Assembly: GCF_036248255.1 (NCBI RefSeq)
Contig: NZ_CP109179.1
Span: forward strand, 620,001 to 684,000
DNA: 64,000 nt
Direction: 5' to 3'
Source: Streptomyces sp. NBC_01717
GTDB taxonomy: Bacteria > Actinomycetota > Actinomycetes > Streptomycetales > Streptomycetaceae
Shown: positions 3,314 to 64,000 of the stretch, piece by piece
Numbering within the stretch: position 1 is the stretch's first letter
How the letters are laid out: the number at the start of each line of letters is the position of its first letter
Notes under the pieces: generated by a model
What the model was told of the DNA's origin: nothing
Database searches by the model: none
What the model saw: the letters and a program-made list of their open reading frames with translations, nothing else
Made by a program: the position numbers and the translations under genes

Positions 3314-5294
3314 CTGCTCCCCGCACCCGCGGGGATGGTCCCGGATGCTGACCGCCGGGGCGTGGTCCGGAGTGCTGCTCCCCGCACCCGCGGGGATGGT
3401 CCCGGATGCTGACCGCCGGGGCGTGGTCCGGAGTGCTGCTCCCCGCACCCGCGGGGATGGTCCCGCGGCCGGCGATGCGGTGCTACAGGAGAGACACTGC
3501 TCCCCGCACCCGCGGGGATGGTCCCGTGTTGTCCTGGGTGCGGACGTCCCACACGATCTGCTCCCCGCACCCGCGGGGATGGTCCCGGCGGCGCACTGAC
3601 ATCGCGTTCGCCCTGGGCCTGCTCCCCGCACCCGCGGGGATGGTCCCTGGCTCGATGTCTACACCGGAGTGAACGGAGGCTGCTCCCCGCACCCGCGGGG
3701 ATGATCCCAGCCCGAAGTGGGACAGTTGGCTTTCGCAGATCTGCTCCCCGCACCCGCGGGGATGGTCCCGTCCTCCAGTTCCACGCGGGTGAAGTGGTCA
3801 GCTGCTCCCCGCACCCGCGGGGATGGTCCCGATCACCGCCGACGCCGGGGGAAACATCACAGCTGCTCCCCGCACCCGCGGGGATGGTCCCGTGGCGGGG
3901 GCCCTGCCGGACCCACGGCACTGCTGCTCCCCGCACCCGCGGGGATGGTCCCGGTGTTCCGCCAGACCGAGCGGGGCCCGGACACTGCTCCCCGCACCCG
4001 CGGGGATGGTCCCGACTACGTCTCCGCCTGGCTCCGCATCATGCGCTGCTCCCCGCACCCGCGGGGGATGGTCCCGGTGTCGATTCCAGCAGGCATGGTC
4101 ATGGGTCCTGCTCCCCGCACCCGCGGGGATGGTCCCCAGCGACCACGGCAGACCGTCGCGCTCCACCTCTGCTCCCCGCACCCGCGGGGATGGTCCCACG
4201 GTCACGAGCGTGACGTGCGCGACCGGTCTCTGCTCCCCGCACCCGCGGGGATGGTCCCGGCGTGACCAAGACCGTAGACGAGCAGAACAACTGCTCCCCG
4301 CACCCGCGGGGATGGTCCCGGCACCTTCACTTCCGCCGGAACGCTCACCGTCTGCTCCCCGCACCCGCGGGGATGGTCCCGGGCGCGACGGGGTCGACGG
4401 GACGGACGGTCGCTGCTCCCCGCACCCGCAGGGATGGTCCCATGGCGCCTGCCATCGAAATGGAGGAGACTGGCTGCTCCCCGCACCCGCAGGGATGGTC
4501 GCCCTGCGGATCCCTGGCATATGCCGCAGGGTCACTGCTCCCCGCACCCGCAGGGATGGTCCCTGCGCCGCCTGGTAGGCGGTCGTCTGCATCGTCTGCT
4601 CCCCGCACCCGCAGGGATGGTCCCGTCATGCACGCGTCGAAGCCTGGCGACACCGCCTGCTCCCCGCACCCGCAGGGATGGTCCCTGCGCCGCCTGGTAG
4701 GCGGTCGTCTGCATCGTCTGCTCCCCGCACCCGCAGGGATGGTCCCGACCCGCCAGGCGGAACCTCGTAGATCGGCCACTGCTCCCCGCACCCGCGGGGA
4801 TGGTCCCTCACCACTTGCCTACCTTCTTCGCCAACGTGTCTGTTCCCCGCACCCGCGGGGATGGTCCCGGCCAGGCGTTGGTCAGGATCGGGTCGAAGGA
4901 CTGCTCCCCCGCACCCGCGGGGATGGTCCCAGTCGCGGCCTCGGTGAGGGCGGCCGGTCGAGCTGCTCCCCGCACCCGCGGGGATGGTCCCCTGCGCAAC
5001 TCTTTCGTCGGTCTGATCGTCGTCTGCTCCCCGCACCCGCGGGGATGGTCCCGTGTCGAGCAGGTCGTCGGCCTTGTTGGCGCTCTGCTCCCCGCACCCA
5101 CGGGGATGGTCCTCCGGCGCCGATCCGGTACGAGGTCGGCACCCACTGCTCCCCGCACCAGCGGGGATGGTCCCTCATGCCGCACTCCTCAGTTCGTCTT
5201 GTGCCACTGCTCCCCGCACCCGCGGGGATGGTCCCTGCATGAATTCCGGGACCCTCGTGAGCCGGCTGCTCCCCGCACCCACGGGGATGGTCTA
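3314..5294 (+). CRISPR. Type I-E CRISPR array, 33 repeats and 32 spacers
   Basis: Repeats of 29 bp with the palindromic core CCCCGCACCCGCGGGG recur every 61 bp (32-bp spacers). The same repeat strand as the E. coli I-E repeat is read on plus, so transcription should run left to right. Repeat starts run 3314, 3375, 3436 ... 5207, 5266. The repeats at 4046 and 4901 carry a 1-bp insertion, and the last spacer is 30 bp. Six consecutive repeats (4413-4746) share GCAGGG instead of GCGGGG. The final repeats (5085, 5146, 5266) vary and the last ends GGTCTA, marking the trailer end. Spacers 1 and 2 are identical (3343-3374, 3404-3435), and the spacer at 4564 recurs at 4686. Confidence 0.98.
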
Positions 5295-51093: not shown

Positions 51094-52212
51094 TCACGCG
51101 ACTTTCGTTGGTCGTCCGCCCCAGCGGATGCGCTTCTCGCTGCGGATGCGAGCACGCTCCTTCCGCTGGGCGGCGAGGACGTCGGGGTGTCGGGCATTTT
51201 TGTTGCGCCATCGCAGGTAGGCGTGCAGGGCACGGGTCTGGACCGTGTGATTGCGGTGGTGGGAGTTGGCGACGGTGAACTGCCGTAGCGGCCCGAAGTG
51301 GGCCTCTATCGAGTTGGCCCAGGACGCGTAGGTCGGGGTGAAGCACAGTTCGACCCGATTGTTCTTCGCCCAGCGCCGGATCATGTCGCCTTTGTGGGCG
51401 GAGAGGTTGTCCAAGATGATGTAGATCGGGGCGCCGTCCGGGCGGGCCGCGCGGATCGACCTGAGTGCGGTCAGGGTGTTGCCAGCTCCCTTCTTGCGGC
51501 GGTTGACGCCCCAGAGGGTGTCGTCGCCGACGGAGTAGCAGCCGTCGAAGTAGCGGACGCCGTGGGTGCGGTGGTAGGTGGCGGGGTGCCGTTCGGGGTG
51601 ACCGGCAGGGGCCCAGGACGAGCCGGCGGTGGGTCGGATGCCGAGCGGGCCGAACTCGTCGAACGCGAAGACCCGGTCGGGGAAGCGGTCCAGGACGTGT
51701 TCGATACGGTCGAGCTTGGCGTCGCGCTCAGGGTCCGGGGATTCCTTCCACGTCTTGGTGCGCTGGAAGGTGATGCCGCGGCGAGCGAGTAGGCAACGTA
51801 ACGCCTCGCGGCCGATGCAGATGACGCGGCCGTGGGCTTTCCGCAGGTAGGCGGCGAGTTTGCGGATGGACCAGCGGGTGAAGGGCTGGCCGAGTTTGGT
51901 CGGGCGGGTGGTGGCCGTCTGGATGACGAAGTTCTCGTCGTCAGGACTGAGCAGGCGGGGACGGCGTCCCGCCCACTGAGGGTCCAGGCAGGCGAGGTCG
52001 ATCTCGTTGAACCGGTGGATCACGTCCCGGACGGTGTCCTCGTCGGCCTGCACCAACTGCGCGATCACTGGCACCCGGTTTCCGCCGGCGGAGGCCAGCA
52101 GCATCATCGCGCGCCGGTAGCGCACCGAACTGGTGCTGCCCCGGCGCACGATCTGCTGCAGCTTCTGCCCCTCCTGATCGGTCAACCTGCGCACACGGAC
52201 GGGCTCTGCCAC
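51094..52212 (-). CDS. IS630-family transposase
   Basis: A 372-residue DDE enzyme. The N-terminal helix-turn-helix (RVPVIAQLVQADEDTVRDVI) is followed by RKLAAYLRKAHGRVICIGRE, VFAFDEFGPLGIRPTAGSSW (first Asp), PIYIILDNLSAHKGDMIRRW (second Asp) and CFTPTYASWANSIEAHFGPL (Glu). GTG at 52212 (VAEPVRVRRLTDQEG) was chosen to match the related relic; an in-frame start 12 codons upstream is possible. It is intact. Confidence 0.92.
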   Translation of the reverse strand: MAEPVRVRRLTDQEGQKLQQIVRRGSTSSVRYRRAMMLLASAGGNRVPVIAQLVQADEDTVRDVIHRFNEIDLACLDPQWAGRRPRLLSPDDENFVIQTATTRPTKLGQPFTRWSIRKLAAYLRKAHGRVICIGREALRCLLARRGITFQRTKTWKESPDPERDAKLDRIEHVLDRFPDRVFAFDEFGPLGIRPTAGSSWAPAGHPERHPATYHRTHGVRYFDGCYSVGDDTLWGVNRRKKGAGNTLTALRSIRAARPDGAPIYIILDNLSAHKGDMIRRWAKNNRVELCFTPTYASWANSIEAHFGPLRQFTVANSHHRNHTVQTRALHAYLRWRNKNARHPDVLAAQRKERARIRSEKRIRWGGRPTKVA

Positions 52213-52297
52213 CACACCCCCAACGATCGGACGGACGTCACCGCACATCCAACCGTCGCCATCACCAACCCGGCGAACCTTCCCGGTCAGAGCACTA

Positions 52298-52520: not shown

Positions 52521-52689
52521 CACTGACCTGACGCTCACCGATACCCCAATGCGGAGCGGCCTGCGGACGTGCTCCGGTTGGTCGGTCGGGGGCGTGAGCG
52601 GACTGTCTGCGCCGGGGGAACTGGTCGGAGCGGGCGGGCCCGGTTATTGGAGGAGGGTGGCTATGTGCTGGCAGTGCCCCGCTGGCTTC

Positions 52690-53300
52690 GGTCCCTGGCT
52701 TCAGTCCCTTGGTAAAACAGCAGGTCAGAGGGGGTTCGGTGCCTGATTCAGGGACTGAAGGGACTCAAGTTGAGCGTTATGACGTCACTACGTGTGCGCG
52801 TATGCGCAGGCGTATGAATCTTGTTCTAGACGTATTAGGGCTAGCTCATAATTAGGGATTTCAGTCCCTTCAGTCCCTGATCTGCTACCTATACGTGCTC
52901 TGACCTGCATCTTCTGTCAGGGACTGAAGCCAGGGACCAACGGCATCCCGGCCCTGGTTCTCAGTCCAAGCGCGTTCTGGCTCAAGCCTGCCTGCCATCC
53001 GGTAACCCCGCCCGCCCCAGGGCAGGCTCTGTTCCGCCGGCTCTACTTCTGGCCTCCAGTCCCTTCAGCCTCTCGCAAAACGTCACATACTTCGCATATC
53101 ACCTCAACGGAAGGCTGTTTGTCAGGGGCTGAAGGGACTCAAGGGACTCAAAAACTGATAGAACGGCACGCGGGGGAGTTCCCCGGCCGAGGATGACCTG
53201 AGCCCTAGACTCATTCCGAAAGACAGTCCCTTCGGTCCCTGAACCTGCAGACACGGACCCCTGTGACCAGCATTCTTGTCGTAGGGACTGAAGCCCCTAC
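52690..53300. repeat. Iteron array 1 and probable replication origin (CAGTCCCT type)
   Basis: The motif CAGTCCCT and its complement AGGGACTG recur singly and as paired direct repeats (TTCAGTCCCTTCAGTCCCT) at about 52701, 52749, 52861, 52916, 53057, 53122, 53223 and 53281. Between them lies a relatively AT-rich segment (52785-52860). No gene fits in this 1-kb gap. It ends 25 bp before a primase gene, and the last copy overlaps that gene's promoter area, suggesting self-regulation by the initiator. Confidence 0.85.
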
Positions 53301-53324
53301 GACCGGACCGATAAGGACGACTGC

Positions 53325-54410
53325 GTGCCGCGCCACGGTAAGACGAGCCCGGACACTTCCCCGGCCAGCTCCGTGCCGTCGCTTGCCCTTGCACGCTGGT
53401 GCGCAAGCAACGGCTGGCCGGTCCATCCTCTTGCGGTGGGCCGCAAGACTCCCGCCGCGAACTGCTCAGCCTGCAGGGACCGGCACCACAACCCCAAGGC
53501 CTGCCCCTGTTTGCCAGCAGGCAGGCCTTGTCATGGCTTCCACGCCGGCACGACCAACCCGTTGCGCATCGAGAAGTGGTGGACCGATAGCCCCCGCTCC
53601 GGTGTAGGAGTGGCCTGCGGGGCGGCCGGCCTCGTCGTCCTCGACATCGACGCCCACTCTGCCCCGGTGCCGGACCGAAGCCGGTTGCTCCCGGGTATCG
53701 CCATCCACGAATCGGTCAACCTGGCTGGACTCGCTTCGGGCTTTGACACGATGGCGTTGCTAGCCGCCTTTCGTCGGCAGCCCAACCCTGCCGACGACGA
53801 GAACACCTTGCGCGTTCGCACTCCGTCGGGCGGCCTCCACGTCTGGTATCGCAACACGGTTGCCGGAACCCGTTTCCGCTCCTCGACGGGTTCGAGCCCG
53901 AGGGTCGCGCTCGCCTGGCAGGTTGATGTGCGGGCAGAGGGCGGCTACATCATCGCGCCCGCTACCCGCACCTCCCAGGGCAGCTACGAGGCGGTCGGCC
54001 CGGCTCGTATGCCGGCCCCGTTGCCTGACTGGCTCGCGGCTGAGCTGATCCGGACGGGCCACACGGTCTCCTCGGCACCAACGCCGCAGACCGCCTCGAC
54101 TCTGCCCCGTGCTCGACAGGCGAGCAAGCCGAAGTCCGCTCACCGGATCCTGGACCCACACCTGGCTGAAGTCGCCCAGTGCGCGGCCACACCAGAAGGC
54201 GCGGGGTTTACCGAGAAGCTGAACCGGGCTGCGTTCACCGCAGGCGGCCTTGCCGCCGCAGGACACCTCAGCGAATCCATCGTCCGTGAACTTCTTGCCG
54301 CCGCCGCGCACGAGGCACGCCCCTGGCAGATATCCCGCAACGAAAAGCTCATCAATGACGGTCTCGCCGCCGGGGCCGCCCGACCGCTCCATCTCAAAGG
54401 ACGTTCATGA
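53325..54410 (+). CDS. Prim-Pol primase/polymerase, replication module 1
   Basis: A 361-residue protein from GTG with AAGGA upstream. LARWCASNGWPVHPLAVGRK and a Cys-rich knot (NCSACRDRHHN, CPCLPAGRPCHGFHAG) precede GVACGAAGLVVLDIDAHSAP, where D107 and D109 are the catalytic acids of the bifunctional primase/polymerase (Prim-Pol) family. RTPSGGLHVWYR holds the conserved His and IAPATRTSQGSY follows. The C-terminal 90 residues (GFTEKLNRAAFTAGGLAAAG) resemble the tail of plasmid primases. The stop overlaps the helicase start. It probably primes plasmid replication at the adjacent iterons. Confidence 0.9.
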   Translation: MPRHGKTSPDTSPASSVPSLALARWCASNGWPVHPLAVGRKTPAANCSACRDRHHNPKACPCLPAGRPCHGFHAGTTNPLRIEKWWTDSPRSGVGVACGAAGLVVLDIDAHSAPVPDRSRLLPGIAIHESVNLAGLASGFDTMALLAAFRRQPNPADDENTLRVRTPSGGLHVWYRNTVAGTRFRSSTGSSPRVALAWQVDVRAEGGYIIAPATRTSQGSYEAVGPARMPAPLPDWLAAELIRTGHTVSSAPTPQTASTLPRARQASKPKSAHRILDPHLAEVAQCAATPEGAGFTEKLNRAAFTAGGLAAAGHLSESIVRELLAAAAHEARPWQISRNEKLINDGLAAGAARPLHLKGRS

Positions 54411-55918
54411 GCAGCGCCGAAAGCACCCGCTTTGACGCAACTGCCGCCGCTCAGCAGATGCTCAATCTCGAAGCCCTGCAGCCCGCCCCGGCCCTCCCGG
54501 TGCAGGCTGCTTCCGCGTCCCCCTTGTCGACTCAGAGCCAGTTGCCCAGCACTCTTACCGACCGCGGTAATGCCAAGTTGTTCGTCCGCCTCTACCGCAG
54601 CCAGTTCCGGCACGTTGAGGGCCTGGGCTGGTTTGCCTGGGACGGCTACAGGTGGAAGCGGACCGGCGGCGAGAAAGCTGCGCTGTGGGCGGCGGGGGAG
54701 ATGGCCGAGGAGATGCCGGATACCGATCTCCGTGGCATCTTCAGCGACCGCGAGCTCTGCGTCCACAAGAAGCGCACCTTGTCGACCACTGGCATGAAGG
54801 CCCTGCTGACCCAGGCGAAGGCATCCCCGGACCTGTCCGTAGACCCCGACACCCTGGACGGCGATCCCTACGCCCTGTGCACCCCTGAAGGCGTCGTCGA
54901 CCTCACGACCGGCCGCCTGCGCAAGCCCGATCCCACACGCGACTTTCACTCCCGCGCCACGAGCGTTGCCCCCCTGAACATGCCCACCCCTCGCTGGCAC
55001 CAATTCCTGGCCGAGACCTTCGGTGACGACGCCGAAGGCCAGGAAATGATCGACTTCCTGCACCTGCTGCTCGGCTACTCCATCACCGGCGACGTCGGTG
55101 CCCAGGTCCTGCCCTTCCTCCACGGCCAGGGAAAGAACGGGAAGTCTGTTCTTCTTGACGTGATGATTCAGATCCTCGGCGACTATGCGGACGCAGCCCC
55201 GCCCGGTTTCCTGATGGACCGAGGTGCGTTCTCCGAACACTCCACCGAGCTCACAGAGCTTCACGGCCGGCGCCTGATCGTCTGCAGCGAACTCAAGCCG
55301 AACGACCGGTTCGACGAAGCCCGCGTTCGCCTTCTTACCGGCGGAGACAAGATCAAGGCCCGCCGCATGCGGCAGGATTATTTCTCCTTCACGCCCACCC
55401 ACCACCTCTGGCTGCTCGGTAACCACCGCCCCGAAGTCTCCACCGGTGGCTTCGCGTTCTGGCGCCGCATCCGTCTGTTGCCCTTCGAACGGATCGTCCC
55501 CGACGAGCGGAAGATCGACAACCTCGCCGTGGAACTCGTCGGTGACGAAGGTTCAGGCATCCTGCAGTGGCTCATCGAGGGCGCTCGCCGCTACCTCGCG
55601 ACCCGTGACAGCCTCGCCGGACCGGACCGGGTCCGTATCGCCACGAGCGCCTACGCCAACACCGAAGACCACATCGGCCGCTTCCTCGCCGAATGCTGCA
55701 TTCACGACCCTGAGAAGCAAGAACTCCGTGTTGAACAGGGCTTGTTGTACGCCTCCTACAGCACCTGGTGCACTGCCAGCGAAGGTATCCGCCCCGCCAC
55801 AACCCGCACCTTCGCCACCCGCGTCCGGCAAGAAGTGGGCCTCGCCTCACCCGCCGACATGATCAAATCCAACGGCCGGAAGTTCTACCCCAACCTCGCC
55901 CTGGTAGCCGAGCAGTGA
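54407..55918 (+). CDS. P4/D5-type replicative helicase, replication module 1
   Basis: A 503-residue SF3-type helicase. TLTDRGNAKLFVRLYRSQFR, HVEGLGWFAWDGYRWKRTGG (D5_N domain) and FHSRATSVAPLN lead to FLHLLLGYSITGDVGAQVLP, HGQGKNGKSVLLDVMIQILG (Walker A about residues 240-247), GRRLIVCSELKPNDRFDEAR, LLTGGDKIKARRMRQDYF and HHLWLLGNHRPEVSTGGFAF. This is the phage/plasmid primase P4-family C-terminal pattern. It is translated from an ATGA overlap with the primase. Together they should form the initiator of module 1. Confidence 0.93.
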   Translation: MSSAESTRFDATAAAQQMLNLEALQPAPALPVQAASASPLSTQSQLPSTLTDRGNAKLFVRLYRSQFRHVEGLGWFAWDGYRWKRTGGEKAALWAAGEMAEEMPDTDLRGIFSDRELCVHKKRTLSTTGMKALLTQAKASPDLSVDPDTLDGDPYALCTPEGVVDLTTGRLRKPDPTRDFHSRATSVAPLNMPTPRWHQFLAETFGDDAEGQEMIDFLHLLLGYSITGDVGAQVLPFLHGQGKNGKSVLLDVMIQILGDYADAAPPGFLMDRGAFSEHSTELTELHGRRLIVCSELKPNDRFDEARVRLLTGGDKIKARRMRQDYFSFTPTHHLWLLGNHRPEVSTGGFAFWRRIRLLPFERIVPDERKIDNLAVELVGDEGSGILQWLIEGARRYLATRDSLAGPDRVRIATSAYANTEDHIGRFLAECCIHDPEKQELRVEQGLLYASYSTWCTASEGIRPATTRTFATRVRQEVGLASPADMIKSNGRKFYPNLALVAEQ

Positions 55919-56159
55919 ACCACACACACCCGCCCGCCCCCGCCCGCCCCCGGCAAGGCCCCCTAGGCCCTCGCTCCCGGCCGGTCTACGATGACGGCAA
56001 AGCCCACTGCTACGAGGCACCACCTCACGCAGTGACATCACGGCCCCCAACGGGAGCCCACAAATTGTTGGCACGGGAAATCAGCGCCTACCAGGTACGT
56101 GGGGAACAATCCGGGCACCACGTGAATCGGTGCCCACAAATGAAGGAGAGGTCGCGGCC

Positions 56160-56546
56160 ATGAGCTCGCTCCTGACCGACGGCGATCTCGCCCACGAAGC
56201 AAACGTGGTGTGGATTGAGGACCCCGAAAACCTCGACTACGTCCGCCAAGCCCTGGACAAGACCCCCCGTCGCCGCAGCAAGCCCCGATACGAACGCGAC
56301 GGCCGCATGATCGGGTACGTCGAGCTCGACGGCACCGCCGAAGCCGACCCAGACAGCGGCCTCTACCGGCGACGCGTCTTCTTCCTCCTCCCTCACGACC
56401 GCGACTCCGCCCCAGAAGGTGTCTACCGGCAAGGAGCACCGGGAGAAGCAGTCGACCCACGAACCATCCGGCCAAATCGGGTGGGGGAGAAGACACCACG
56501 CTCTCAGCGTGGGATCGCCTCCGCTATAACCCCGGCCAGCTCGTAG
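56160..56546 (+). CDS. Small third gene of replication module 1
   Basis: A 128-residue protein starting MSSLLTDGDLAHEANVVWIE after AAGGAGAGG. DPENLDYVRQALDKTPRRRS, KPRYERDGRMIGYVELDGT, RRRVFFLLPHDRDSAPEGVY and GAPGEAVDPRTI align closely with the third gene of module 2 (60030-60431). It is conserved in both modules in the same position, so it is probably part of the replication system (regulator or copy control). The family was not recognised. A strong terminator follows at 56578. Confidence 0.8.
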   Translation: MSSLLTDGDLAHEANVVWIEDPENLDYVRQALDKTPRRRSKPRYERDGRMIGYVELDGTAEADPDSGLYRRRVFFLLPHDRDSAPEGVYRQGAPGEAVDPRTIRPNRVGEKTPRSQRGIASAITPASS

Positions 56547-56577
56547 TCCGCCGTCCGGACTGCCTGCGCCCGCTTTA

Positions 56578-56617
56578 GTCGACTGCGCCCCCGCCTCACG
56601 TTGGGGGCGCAGTCGAC
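56578..56617. terminator. Strong terminator after module 1
   Basis: GTCGACTGCGCCCCC and GGGGGCGCAGTCGAC pair perfectly around a loop of about 10 nt. This separates module 1 from the iterons of module 2. Confidence 0.85.
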
Positions 56618-56904
56618 GACGACCTTGGCGACAGCAACCCACGTGCACGGTGGCGTTAGCGAAACCGAACGCGGACGCGGACTCAACGTGCACGTGCTTT
56701 CCTGAACGCTGAGCGCATCAACCGCCGGCTGTCGACCCCGACGACATCGACGCCCGCCACCGCGACCCGACGGTGCGCTGCGTCGTCGAGCAGGACTGCG
56801 ACAAGTACACCATGGCGCGCAGCTGGAGATCGCGCTGCGCTTCGTAGGCGGAGCCCCACCGTAAACGCTCCAGCTCATCACTGCACCGGCCGGTGACCGT
56901 CGTC

Positions 56905-57465
56905 ACAGCGACTCAAGGGACTGGACCTCGTAGGCCCGTTCGCCGGCAGGTTCCTTCGGTCGCTTCAGTCGCTGGCCGTGGAGGCCCGGCCAGCGACTGA
57001 AAGCCTGGCACGCCGCAGGATGCTCAGTCGCTGCCTCGGTATACGCCAAACATGCAGGTCAGAAGACTTCTTGCGACCAGAGCAGCGACCGAAGCGACTC
57101 ACAGTGCCTGTATATGCCGTCATTCTTGAGTGTGCGTGTGTGTCATATATAGAAGACTTCAGTCGCTTCAGTCGCTTTCTGTCTTCCAGCAGGCTTCTGA
57201 CCTGCAGCTTTCGGCGAGCGACGAGGCCAGCGACTCAAGCTCGCTGGGTCGCTGCCCCTCGCTCTTGGTCGCTGGTACACCTGGCCTGCCTCGACACGGA
57301 GCCTCTGTGTTTCCAGGGGTGTCCGCACGTTGCCACGTACTTCGCTAGTGTGTGTTCATTGTTGAGTCGCTTCAGTCGCTGATGGGGGAACCACATGCCT
57401 GCTGAGCTGCGGATTTCTCGCAGCGACTCAAGGCAGTCAGTCCCTGAACGTTCAGTCGCTGACTC
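56905..57465. repeat. Iteron array 2 and probable replication origin (CAGTCGCT type)
   Basis: CAGTCGCT and its complement AGCGACTG recur at about 56956, 56990, 57025, 57083, 57158, 57215, 57363, 57419 and 57452, often as TTCAGTCGCTTCAGTCGCT. Compared with array 1 each unit has G for C at one position. Two places mix the types: AGCGACTCAAGGGACTGG at 56907 and CAGTCCCTGAACGTTCAGTCGCT near 57440. The last copies lie inside the first codons of the primase gene. Confidence 0.85.
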
Positions 57466-58510
57466 CTTGATGCTGGCTACGGCCAGGTGGTGTGCCAGCC
57501 GCGGGTGGCCAGTGCACCCGCTGACGCCTGGACGCAAGACACCAGCCGGAAACTGCCCTCGGTGCCGTGAAGCAAGGCACTCCCACCACAGGTGCGACTG
57601 CCGGGAAGCTGGTCGGTGGTGCCACGGATTTCACGCCGCCACCCTCGACAGAGCCCAAATCGACCAGTGGTGGAGCCACACGCCCGATTTCGGTGTGGGC
57701 ATCGCGTGCGGCCCCGCAGGACTGGTCGTCATCGACGTCGACGCTCACCAGCAGCCGCTCCCGGACCGGCACCACGTCCTGCCCGGCATTCCGATCCCGG
57801 AGGGCGTCGACCTCCGGGGACTGGCCAACGGCTACCACTCCCTTGCCGTCCTGGCCGCTTTGCGCGGCGTAGCGAGCCCCGCCGACGACGTGTCCACCCT
57901 GCGCGTGCAGACCCCATCAGGAGGGCTTCACGTCTGGTACAAAGCGACTGACGGACGACGCTGGCAGTGCTCGACCGGATCGGGCGGCGGCCGGGCGCTG
58001 GCCTGGCAGGTAGACGTGCGTGCCCACGGCGGCTACATCATTGCCCCCGGTACCACAACGAGCGCAGGAACCTACACACCGCTCGGAACGACTCGGGAGC
58101 CTGCACCGCTGCCGACGTGGCTGGCCCAAGAACTTGAGCGCACCGGGCACCTTCCGGCTCCGAGTGTTCCTGCCCCGCGGTCTGTTCCGCCACGTGCCCG
58201 CCAGGCTGTCATTGCAGCTGGCGGCGGCGCCGACCGGGCCAGCCGCACCCTGGCCACCGTCCTGGGCGAGGTCGCCGCCTGTTCAGCCGTGGCTGAAGGA
58301 GCGGGGTTCTCGGACAAGCTCAACCGTGCCGCTTTCACCGCAGGCGGGCTGGTTGCAGCGGGGCACCTGGCTGAGCAAGCTGCCGCCCAGGCACTGCAGG
58401 AGGTAGCCGACGTGGCCCGCCCCCGCCAGACGCGCCGAATCGAGCAGATCATTCGCAGCGGCATGAATGCTGGCAAGCAACATCCTTTGGATCCGGGGAG
58501 TCGCTCGTGA
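57395..58510 (+). CDS. Prim-Pol primase/polymerase, replication module 2
   Basis: A 371-residue paralogue of the module 1 primase. The first 25 codons cover iterons (MPAELRISRSDSRQSVPERS); an ATG at about 57470 is an alternative start. LATARWCASRGWPVHPLTPG, a Cys/His knot (NCPRCREARHSHHRCDC), GIACGPAGLVVIDVDAHQQP (D114, D116 catalytic), LRVQTPSGGLHVWYK and GGYIIAPGTTTSAGTYTPLG match module 1 in order. The C-terminal tail (GFSDKLNRAAFTAGGLVAAG) is nearly identical. The stop overlaps the helicase start. Confidence 0.9.
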   Translation: MPAELRISRSDSRQSVPERSVADSLMLATARWCASRGWPVHPLTPGRKTPAGNCPRCREARHSHHRCDCREAGRWCHGFHAATLDRAQIDQWWSHTPDFGVGIACGPAGLVVIDVDAHQQPLPDRHHVLPGIPIPEGVDLRGLANGYHSLAVLAALRGVASPADDVSTLRVQTPSGGLHVWYKATDGRRWQCSTGSGGGRALAWQVDVRAHGGYIIAPGTTTSAGTYTPLGTTREPAPLPTWLAQELERTGHLPAPSVPAPRSVPPRARQAVIAAGGGADRASRTLATVLGEVAACSAVAEGAGFSDKLNRAAFTAGGLVAAGHLAEQAAAQALQEVADVARPRQTRRIEQIIRSGMNAGKQHPLDPGSRS

Positions 58511-60033
58511 CTTCCTCCGCCAGCGACGACGGTTTCCTCTTCAACTTTGATCCGCAGGCCGTAGCAGCCCAGATCCTTGCTCAAACGGCAACGCCGCTGC
58601 CGGCGCAGGCAGGAGAAATGCGCTTGGCAGCAGTGCGGGACAGTCCGGCCACGCCCGTCGGCCTGCTGCCAGATACGCTCTCGGACCGCGGCAACGCCAA
58701 ACTGTTCGTGAACCTGTATGCCAACGACTACCGTCACGTTCCCGGCCTTGGCTGGTTCCGGTGGGACGCCACCCGCTGGCAGATGGACGAGGACGATGCC
58801 GTCGTCTGGGCAGCTGGCGACCTCGCAGAGAACCTGGCCGTCAGCGACCCTCGAGGCATCTTTACCCCGACCGCGCTGCAGCAGCATCGACGCCGGGCCC
58901 TGAGCACGTCGGGCATGAACGCCATGCTCACCCAGGCCAGGTCCGCCCCGGGCATGGTCCTCAACGCCACGCTCCTGGACGCTGACCCCTACGTTCTGTG
59001 CACCCCCGCAGGCGTGGTCGATCTGCGCACCGGCCTACTGAGAACACCCGACCCGAACAAGGACTTTCACTCCCGCTCGACCTCGACCGGACCGACACAC
59101 GGCCCTACCCCGCGATGGGACCGCTTCCTTGCCGACACGTTCGGCGACGACGCGGAAGGCACGGAAATGATCGACTTCCTGCACCTGCTGCTGGGCTACT
59201 CCATCACCGGCGACGTCGGCGGGCAGGTAATGCCGTTCCTGTTCGGATCCGGCAAGAACGGCAAGTCCGTCCTCCTGGATGTGCTCATGAAACTGTTGGG
59301 GGACTACGCCGACGCTGCCCCACCCGGCTTCCTGATGGCCCGCCCCTATGAGGGCCACCCCACCGACCTGGCTGAGCTGCACGGCCGTCGCGTCATCGTG
59401 TGCTCCGAGGTCAAACCCGGTGACAAGTTCGACGAGGCACGCGTCAAACTCCTGACCGGCGGGGACCGCATCAAAGCCCGCCGGATGAGGCAGGACTTCT
59501 TCAGCTTCGCCCCCACCCACAAGCTCTGGCTGCTGGGCAACCACCGACCCGAAGTCGGCACCGGCGGCTTCGCCTTCTGGCGCCGCATGAGGATGATCCC
59601 GTTCGAACGTGTTGTCTCCGACGACCGCAAAATCGACAACCTTGCAGACATCCTGGTCGCTGAAGAAGGCCCCGGCATCCTCAACTGGCTGATCGAGGGG
59701 GCACGCCGCTACCTCGCAGGCGACAAAGACCTCACCGGCCCCCAACGAGTCCGCATCGCCACCACCGCCTACGCAGAAACTGAAGACCATACCGGACGTT
59801 TCTTCGAAGAGTCCTGCGCTCTCAACCCAGAACATCGAGCCGAGCAGACCAGGCTCTACGCCGCTTACAGGGACTGGTGCCAAAATGAAGGAGCACCTGC
59901 CATCTCATCCCGAGCCTTCGCCACCCGGGTACGTGATCTGGTCGGACTCGCGTCGCCAAAGGAAATGAAAGTGTCCAACCAGCGAAAGTACTACCCGGGC
60001 ATCGGATTGCTTGCCGACGAGGAGACAACGTGA
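58507..60033 (+). CDS. P4/D5-type replicative helicase, replication module 2
   Basis: A 508-residue paralogue of the module 1 helicase. TLSDRGNAKLFVNLYANDYR, HVPGLGWFRWDATRWQMDED, FLHLLLGYSITGDVGGQVMP, FGSGKNGKSVLLDVLMKLLG (Walker A), GRRVIVCSEVKPGDKFDEAR, LLTGGDRIKARRMRQDFF and HKLWLLGNHRPEVGTGGFAF line up block by block. It starts GTGA on the primase stop and ends overlapping the third gene. Confidence 0.93.
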   Translation: MTSSASDDGFLFNFDPQAVAAQILAQTATPLPAQAGEMRLAAVRDSPATPVGLLPDTLSDRGNAKLFVNLYANDYRHVPGLGWFRWDATRWQMDEDDAVVWAAGDLAENLAVSDPRGIFTPTALQQHRRRALSTSGMNAMLTQARSAPGMVLNATLLDADPYVLCTPAGVVDLRTGLLRTPDPNKDFHSRSTSTGPTHGPTPRWDRFLADTFGDDAEGTEMIDFLHLLLGYSITGDVGGQVMPFLFGSGKNGKSVLLDVLMKLLGDYADAAPPGFLMARPYEGHPTDLAELHGRRVIVCSEVKPGDKFDEARVKLLTGGDRIKARRMRQDFFSFAPTHKLWLLGNHRPEVGTGGFAFWRRMRMIPFERVVSDDRKIDNLADILVAEEGPGILNWLIEGARRYLAGDKDLTGPQRVRIATTAYAETEDHTGRFFEESCALNPEHRAEQTRLYAAYRDWCQNEGAPAISSRAFATRVRDLVGLASPKEMKVSNQRKYYPGIGLLADEETT

Positions 60034-60431
60034 GCTCCCTCATCACAGAGGACGAAATCTGCCACGAGACCGCACTCGTCTGGCTCGAGGATACGACCGA
60101 CCTCGACTACGTACGCCAGAGCCTCGACCGGCTGCCCACCCGCCGAGCCAGACCTGCATACCACCGGGACGGTCGCATGGTGGGATACGCACTCCTTGGC
60201 TCCAACGCCAAACCTTCACGCTCATCGGGCACCTTCCGACGACGCGTCTTCTGGCTCCTGCCGCACGACCGAGATACCGACGCCAACGGTGTCTACGCCA
60301 CCGGAGCACCAGCCGAGGCCATCGACCCCCGGACCCTTGCTCCGGCGAGCAAGGGATGTAAGACCGAACGGTCCGAGGGAGGCCCCCCCTCCAGCGCGAT
60401 GCAAGAACTAGGCATAACACTCCCTCTCTGA
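60030..60431 (+). CDS. Small third gene of replication module 2
   Basis: A 133-residue protein from GTG overlapping the helicase stop: MSSLITEDEICHETALVWLE, DTTDLDYVRQSLDRLPTRRA, YHRDGRMVGYALLGSN, RRRVFWLLPHDRDTDANGVY, TGAPAEAIDPRTL. It is paralogous to 56160-56546. In module 2 it is translationally coupled, while in module 1 a gap of 240 bp separates it from the helicase. Confidence 0.85.
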   Translation: MSSLITEDEICHETALVWLEDTTDLDYVRQSLDRLPTRRARPAYHRDGRMVGYALLGSNAKPSRSSGTFRRRVFWLLPHDRDTDANGVYATGAPAEAIDPRTLAPASKGCKTERSEGGPPSSAMQELGITLPL

Positions 60432-61140: not shown

Positions 61141-61779
61141 TTACTTTGCGAAGCCGGCTTCTTTGAGTGCGTGCTTGAGTGTTTTGATGGCGTAGTGGGT
61201 GCGGGATTTGACGGTTCCGAGGGGCAGGCCTAGTTCTTTTGCGGTTTCGAGCCCGGTCAGTGATCTGAAGTACAGGCAGTGGATGACGGCTTGTTGCTCT
61301 GCCGTCAGCGATGCGAGGGCTTTGTGGATCAGTTCTGCGACCAGTAGTCGGTCGTAGCCGTGTTCGGGTTCGGGGATCAGGGTGAGCACGGCGTCGTTGC
61401 ACTCGGGGGGCCGTACTCGGCGTGCTCGGTCCGCGTCGATCGCGATGCGTCGGGCGACGGTGAACAGCCAGGGCCGGAACGATTCGAACTCGCGGCTGGC
61501 GTCGAGTGCGTTGGGGTGTTTCCAGGCCCGGATCAGGGTTTCCTGTGTGATCTCCTCCGCACGCCAGCGGTCGCCACGTGTCAGCGACAGGCAGAATCGG
61601 TGCAGTGCGGATCCGTGCAGCTCAACGATGCTTTCCATCTGGGCCGCGGTGGCGGTCCGCTGAGCCGGAGCTGTGTGTGCGCGGTGCGTCGTGGGGGTTG
61701 CCGTGGGCGGGTGGGTCGTGTCACGGAGGGGGGTGTCGTGGCGGCCGGCGTTGCGGCGGGTGAGGAGCGCGGTTGTCAT
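61141..61779 (-). CDS. ECF-type RNA polymerase sigma factor
   Basis: A 212-residue sigma-70 family group 4 protein. ATG at 61779 follows AGAGGGGGA. Region 2 is SALHRFCLSLTRGDRWRAEE, ITQETLIRAWKHPNALDASR, SFRPWLFTVARRIAIDADRA. Region 4 is SLTAEQQAVIHCLYFRSLTG, LETAKELGLPLGTVKSRTHY. The N-terminal 45 residues are a Thr/Ala-rich extension. No anti-sigma gene is next to it; upstream is a TnpB relic and a 10-bp hairpin at 61797. Target promoters cannot be inferred. Confidence 0.92.
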   Translation of the reverse strand: MTTALLTRRNAGRHDTPLRDTTHPPTATPTTHRAHTAPAQRTATAAQMESIVELHGSALHRFCLSLTRGDRWRAEEITQETLIRAWKHPNALDASREFESFRPWLFTVARRIAIDADRARRVRPPECNDAVLTLIPEPEHGYDRLLVAELIHKALASLTAEQQAVIHCLYFRSLTGLETAKELGLPLGTVKSRTHYAIKTLKHALKEAGFAK

Positions 61780-61796
61780 AGTGATCCCCCTCTTTT

Positions 61797-61820
61797 GACG
61801 GGGCGGTCCGCCGCCCCGTC
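61797..61820. promoter_or_regulatory. 10-bp hairpin just upstream of the sigma gene
   Basis: GACGGGGCGG, loop, CCGCCCCGTC. It lies 17-40 bp before the sigma factor start and borders the ribosome-binding site, so it is in the transcript leader or promoter. Confidence 0.5.
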
Positions 61821-61929
61821 TGCTGACAGGAAACACTCTGCTCAAGTACTTCCTCGGAAACATCGGCCACCTGACGTACGACCGCCCTCGAAGCGACACC
61901 AGGCACGTACGTCACGCCGGTGGCATCCT

Positions 61930-63360: not shown

Positions 63361-63573
63361 AGGTGACCACCTATGAAACAATGGCGCCGGAGACCAGGCG
63401 GGGGAGCGGGGCCATATCCGCGATCTGTTTACGATTCGTGGGGTCAGGCGGCGTTCGCCGACGGTGGTGTCTCATCTGGGGGTGCCCCGGACACGCCGGT
63501 GATGGCGCGGCGATCTGCCCAGTCCCTGGCTCTGACGTTTGATCACGCTTTCATCCCCGAAGGAGAGAACCCC

Positions 63574-64000
<427 letters not shown>

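Follow-up and report, generated by a model that had tools for sequence, protein, structure and literature searches.

Can two replication modules of the same plan stand side by side on one replicon without competing, and what would keep them apart? The question is raised by a window of 64,000 nucleotides (nt) from Streptomyces sp. NBC_01717 (contig NZ_CP109179.1, here G000:C2:620001-684000), part of a replicon of 799,261 base pairs (bp) in a genome of 10.2 Mb in three contigs. Module A (52690-56546, from the first iteron to the end of the DUF6009 gene) and module B (56907-60431) both comprise an iteron array and genes for a Prim-Pol, a D5-type helicase and a DUF6009 protein, alike in order and strand. 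The first-pass annotation had ascribed one plan to both modules, and the gene order and the Pfam families (Prim-Pol PF09250; D5_N PF08706 with DUF5906; DUF6009 PF19472) agree with it, the three protein pairs being 57%, 63% and 56% identical, respectively. From sequence comparison and a structure model, we consider it rather probable that A and B are modules of two ancient co-resident lineages in which the helicase is the initiator and one iteron base keeps them apart.

The coordinates of both modules are collected in Table 1. In each, an array of near-identical short repeats adjoins the putative initiator gene, as in iteron replicons. Counted on both strands, array A holds 11 AGTCCCT and three GGTCCCT units and no [AG]GTCGCT, and array B holds 12 AGTCGCT and four GGTCGCT units besides two AGTCCCT; the types are named CCT and GCT hereafter. 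Units of both modules begin with A or G, and the type difference is confined to later bases. The home counts of 14 and 16 were reached in none of 1000 first-order Markov resamplings per array, with resampled maxima of 3 and 4. Unit counts and resampling thus confirm the one-base difference first noticed by eye, and the units cluster by module. The statement that the exchange runs throughout stands insofar as the home unit dominates each array, but not for the two CCT units of array B, which had already been recorded as mixed units. Since two or more such units appeared in only 6 of 1000 resamplings, they are probably altered iterons. Their interpretation as remnants of a transition is without support, as nothing marks them so and the B locus of the nearest relative (L219) has 15 GCT units and no CCT unit.

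The genes of both modules are open and their motifs are kept, so that by sequence both look able to work. The Prim-Pol proteins carry VVLDIDAH (A) or VVIDVDAH (B) together with SGGLH, which supply the DxD and SxH motifs of archaeo-eukaryotic Prim-Pols. GxGKNGKS, VCSE, GNHRP and FWRR occur in both helicases, which we take to be the Walker A, Walker B-like, sensor and arginine motifs; with the D5_N and DUF5906 domains they place both proteins among the D5/P4-type superfamily 3 helicases. An in-frame ATG of Prim-Pol B at 57470 would leave all iterons upstream of the gene. With two distinct open replication modules, G000:C2 has the makeup of a multireplicon plasmid of the pFRL1 kind.

The letters recur throughout the family. 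Modules were taken from the best 80 of 333 related loci among named genome contigs, from genus stretches (105 of 392 genomes matched at E 1e-60, and up to three candidates were scored in each), from two named plasmid stretches and from further stretches of 37 fully scored genomes and the genus search. Removal of identical helicases left 203 modules, 151 of which were full, having an unbroken Prim-Pol and a helicase that was nearly complete and free of stops. Lineage was assigned by the nearest proteins and letter type by the commonest unit, present at least six times. The A-lineage full modules comprised 83 CCT, six CCG and three other types, the B-lineage ones 52 GCT and six others, and one distant full module (L213, helicase identity 51%) was of other type; no crossed type, neither an A-lineage GCT nor a B-lineage CCT, occurred among the 151. 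The six deep-branching B modules scored as other (L167, L169, L170, L171, L174 and L176) have their main GCT array 3' of the DUF6009 gene, with 4 to 13 GCT units in 365-600 bp downstream and 0-6 units upstream (L174 also has three CCT), and therefore no longer count as exceptions. Among the A-lineage modules scored as other, L048 is truncated on its upstream side and shows four CCT units, and L191 has seven CAGCCCCT units, a possible fourth type represented by this one module. L144, a candidate crossed B module with CCT iterons, was rejected: its CCT array belongs to an upstream remnant of an A-type Prim-Pol and helicase, and its B helicase, which has no Prim-Pol of its own, lies directly downstream of 16 GCT units. 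No iterons were identified for L212-L215 and L258-L260, which are distant relatives.

In a helicase tree built with FastTree (197 rows), the letter states of the 163 typed rows (90 CCT, 59 GCT and 14 CCG, partial modules included) required two changes, the minimum for three states; the 34 rows untyped from the upstream stretch comprised cut loci and truncated copies, besides deep-B modules, distant relatives and a few rows with no array. The first unit base was A or G at about 61:39 in the CCT and GCT types alike, and the commonest same-strand spacing was 9 bp in all three types. The bases after CAGTC were CCT in 609 of 820 cases in CCT-type modules, GCT in 363 of 491 (CCT in six) in GCT-type modules and CCG in 98 of 139 (CCT in three) in CCG-type modules. 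The initial set of 132 full modules gave 22 CCT units in 58 B modules and 15 GCT units in 74 A modules, against 48.5 and 45.5 expected from letter shuffles of all 132, so the off-type units do not rise above background.

The rule was set down before the test stretches were fetched; it predicted the letter in two ways, by the training helicase that matched best and by the residue at helicase-A position 490. When 200 genomes of the family (37 genomes and 7 of 17 genera with a match) and 296 of the phylum were searched, 40 stretches with 42 helicases were taken, and four helicases already present in the training set were removed. Both predictions were right in all 34 of the remaining 38 modules that had at least five units (29 GCT and five CCT), counted in the 1000 bp before the Prim-Pol where found, compared with 2400 bp in the rule as written. 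Identity to the best-matching training helicase was 70-91% for the GCT cases; for three of the five CCT ones identity to training rows reached 96-98%, no CCG case turned up, and 29 of the 34 belonged to one type. Of the four modules without units, one lay on a truncated contig and three were relatives at 33-43% identity.

Co-residence was assessed in 37 matching genomes, most of them in few contigs, in which every candidate was scored and 55 modules on 39 replicons were typed by hand. Left out were a third module of the present replicon (module C, below; one more same-type pair if counted), truncated copies without an array, the A remnant by L144, L183, L189, L190, L191, L193 and one G179:C2 copy scoring like that on C1. 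Same-type pairs on one replicon made up 3 of 18 (G103, G179 and G301) versus 7.7 expected by shuffling (P 0.013) and, for intact modules only, 1 of 11 (G179) versus 5.4 (P 0.004). Pairs of different lineages stood in tandem in both orders or convergently, with 1.2 to 21.5 kb between the typed helicases. This pattern suggests, without proving it, that plasmids avoid two modules of one type, and it fits the earlier proposal that two origins coexist here without competing.

The reader of the iterons is likely the C-terminal winged helix of the helicase rather than the Prim-Pol. The AlphaFold2 model of helicase A predicts a C-terminal winged helix with a fold like that of RFX DNA-binding domains, and all three letter types are told apart by a single residue of the wing turn (helicase-A position 490). 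We infer that in each module the D5-type helicase acts as the initiator, its winged helix reading the repeated 7-8 base iteron; the helicase would assemble at the array and open the DNA, and the neighbouring Prim-Pol would prime. One iteron base, CCT or GCT, with CCG in a third lineage, would keep the lineages apart, matched by differences in the winged helix and above all in the wing turn. If the letter is so matched, each helicase would act mainly at its own array, and two modules on one replicon could avoid titrating or over-initiating each other.

Which protein sets the letter could be argued otherwise, with the Prim-Pol as reader: in full modules its lineage tracks the iteron letter equally well as that of the helicase, and the array usually adjoins its gene. 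However, 18 of 33 modules without a detectable Prim-Pol keep iterons of matching type, which disfavours the Prim-Pol, and we hold this reading to be improbable. No winged helix was among the Prim-Pol matches listed. Open B-like helicase copies without a Prim-Pol were also observed near full B modules on the opposite strand (L155, L158, L160, L162 and L163); they lack about 20-50 N-terminal residues, have 0-2 GCT units upstream and are possibly regulators or relics. Hardly more probable is that the repeats serve mainly as operators through which the rep operon regulates itself, the letter separating circuits and not origins, a view compatible with that of helicase initiators kept apart by one base. 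The arrays do usually lie just upstream of the operon start, yet the main GCT array of the six deep-B modules lies 3' of DUF6009, and 14-18 units over 550-600 bp with paired units 9 bp apart resemble origin iterons. The origins of staphylococcal pathogenicity islands (SaPIs) likewise lie downstream of rep (PMC7581432).

The history of the pair could also be read differently. With helicase A as query, tblastn against 72,556 plasmid records matched 402, of which 329 were from Streptomyces, the best being NZ_CP109267 at 97.8%. DNA similarity to the A locus of that record spans window positions 52552-56599 and ends shortly after the DUF6009 gene of A, and its B helicase, 88-89% identical to that of the window, lies about 13 kb past its A, in the same orientation. 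Each window module therefore has its own relative there, and the A-B spacing is not fixed. Because the modules are closer to these counterparts (98% and 88-89%) than to each other (63%), and because both lineages with their own letters were found in 7 of the 17 genera searched, A and B are, on sequence grounds, two old lineages of one Streptomycetaceae plasmid replicon family, possibly brought together by cointegration or insertion. A recent tandem duplication in this plasmid, with one base then changed per iteron and the proteins drifting jointly, would suit adjacent modules of the same strand and gene order; it is contradicted by those separate relatives and by the helicase tree, the lineage split predating the divergence of the sampled genera, and we give it next to no credence. 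What survives of the first-pass account, which had proposed duplication or cointegration with joint divergence, is that initiator and iteron diverged together, as lineage-locked letters indicate, earlier and more widely than supposed; a change from CAGTCCCT to CAGTCGCT after duplication here does not. A more serious alternative, still unlikely in our estimate, accepts letters and lineages as real and supposes that one module alone fires here, the second being a cointegration passenger in decay. Such decay is seen on the same replicon in module C, a B-lineage module about 283 kb upstream and outside the window (G000:C2:387545-390134; L004:3546-6135): its helicase and DUF6009 gene are open, and because its Prim-Pol is shortened to 223 amino acids (aa) by a large internal loss and its iterons are three scattered GCT units, it is probably dead. 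Broken or Prim-Pol-less second modules are also common among relatives. Against this, neither A nor B of the window has lost its reading frames, catalytic motifs or full array, and relatives repeatedly carry A-B pairs in which both modules are open.

Several observations weigh against two lineages separated by a helicase-read letter. Module B contains the two CCT units, same-type pairs do exist (G103, G179 and G301), the modules were typed by hand, and the A-lineage module L193 (86%) is without an array. The A and B helicase distances are correlated in 14 pairs (Mantel r 0.51, P 0.008; 42 of 5000 permutations), so part of the co-residence pattern is shared history, although complete co-inheritance is not borne out by a correlation of this size. 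The AlphaFold2 model is weak overall, with a mean predicted local distance difference test (pLDDT) score of 67 and an ATPase core mostly below 50, and the winged helix showed no significant enrichment of type-specific columns (P 0.061, 0.081 and 0.070). Six near-complete helicases without a Prim-Pol have only 2-4 units. Furthermore, with a single origin of each letter on the tree, a specificity residue would be mimicked by any difference fixed between lineages.

A wider reading is offered tentatively, as one that may well fail as a whole. It holds that the family embodies a natural code of orthogonal origins, with at least three, perhaps four, initiator lineages whose iterons lie one base from CAGTCCCT (CAGTCGCT, CAGTCCCG and CAGCCCCT), an RFX-like wing-turn switch, and different letters stacked while repeats are avoided, and that some second modules that have shed their Prim-Pol may borrow that of the partner, giving a minimal origin of helicase plus iterons. 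If helicase-read letters do separate the lineages, one iteron base would set discrete compatibility types for a whole plasmid family, with a candidate residue at hand and nature supplying many examples as well as co-residence, and a joint specificity change of initiator and origin without a dead intermediate would become directly testable. Sequence-based compatibility typing of large Streptomyces plasmids might become possible, and non-interfering origins for Streptomyces vectors could follow.

Table 1. Features of replication modules A and B (window positions; wing features by protein residue).
Feature	Position	Strand	Remarks
Iteron array A	52690..53289	.	14 [AG]GTCCCT, 8 on + and 6 on -; several pairs 9 bp apart
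Prim-Pol A	53325..54410	+	361 aa; PF09250; motifs VVLDIDAH, SGGLH
Helicase A	54407..55918	+	503 aa; D5_N and DUF5906; proposed initiator
Helicase A winged helix (predicted)	residues 421-500		modelled wing-turn residue 490 is G
DUF6009 gene A	56160..56546	+	PF19472; ATG at 56160; open reading frame (ORF) open from 56130
Iteron array B	56907..57460	.	16 [AG]GTCGCT and 2 AGTCCCT
Off-type AGTCCCT in array B	56916..56922	-	9 bp from an AGTCGCT unit
Off-type AGTCCCT in array B	57439..57445	+	no unit at the aligned place in the relative
Prim-Pol B	57395..58510	+	PF09250; longest ORF (371 aa, from 57395) runs over the last iterons
Helicase B	58507..60033	+	508 aa; D5_N, DUF5906 and weak Pox_D5
Helicase B wing-turn residue	residue 492		Q; aligned to 490 of A
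DUF6009 gene B	60030..60431	+	PF19472; overlaps the helicase stop

Three other ORFs of the window were judged by eye. A 384-aa ORF resembling IS630-type transposases adjoins array A (51094-52248, minus strand), a 252-aa ORF resembles sigma-70 family sigma factors (61141-61899, minus strand), and an HtpG/Hsp90-like ORF is cut by the window end (63373-63999, plus strand); the replicon looks like a megaplasmid. A clustered regularly interspaced short palindromic repeat (CRISPR) array at 3314-5246 contains 31 or more repeats, each about 29 nt long, with the sequence CTGCTCCCCGCACCCGCGGGGATGGTCCC or a variant of it and a 61-nt period; it is presumably type I-E-like, and two of its repeat-spacer stretches are present twice (3314/3375 and 4535/4657).

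Among the titles and abstract openings covered, a set without the bulk of the subscription literature and without the papers on the SCP1 and pFRL1 origins, neither a one-base iteron pair in Streptomyces plasmids nor a plasmid family split by one iteron base with lineages stacked on one replicon was found. SCP1-type replicons of Streptomyces linear plasmids are said to have been described by Redenbach in 1999. Like the modules here, they belong to large Streptomyces plasmids and combine a helicase gene with iterons; going by description, both are probably of the same family. Zhang in 2010 reportedly described pFRL1 with two internal origins, and this linear Streptomyces plasmid resembles the present replicon, by description, in having two replication loci. 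It is named as a linear plasmid in PMC3572947. Linear Streptomyces plasmids replicate from a helicase gene plus iterons according to PMC13152386, and letter types do not figure in the passages covered.

Initiator helicases are also represented by SaPI Rep and Cch2 of the staphylococcal cassette chromosome mec (SCCmec), which belong to Staphylococcus elements with the origin downstream of rep (PMC7581432). The C-terminal domain of SaPI Rep reads the iterons and the SaPI primase is not essential, by the same source, and modules without a Prim-Pol fit this; the SaPI5 structure 7ola shares 12% identity with the helicase here over the structural match. One-base differences do have a precedent, contrary to the first-pass statement that no such pair was described: in the begomovirus Euphorbia mosaic virus (EuMV), according to PMC2974675, strains whose GGNGTCC iteron cores differ by one base, matched by one residue of the iteron-related domain of Rep, are incompatible in replication and formed no infectious reassortants. 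That Rep acts by rolling circle and is not homologous, and the types reside in different virus strains, not on one replicon. A further parallel is found in the lactococcal theta plasmids, in which matched RepB and iteron variation is credited, in PMC3138775, with the coexistence of near-homologous replicons, there with another Rep family, 22-bp iterons and separate plasmids instead of one replicon.

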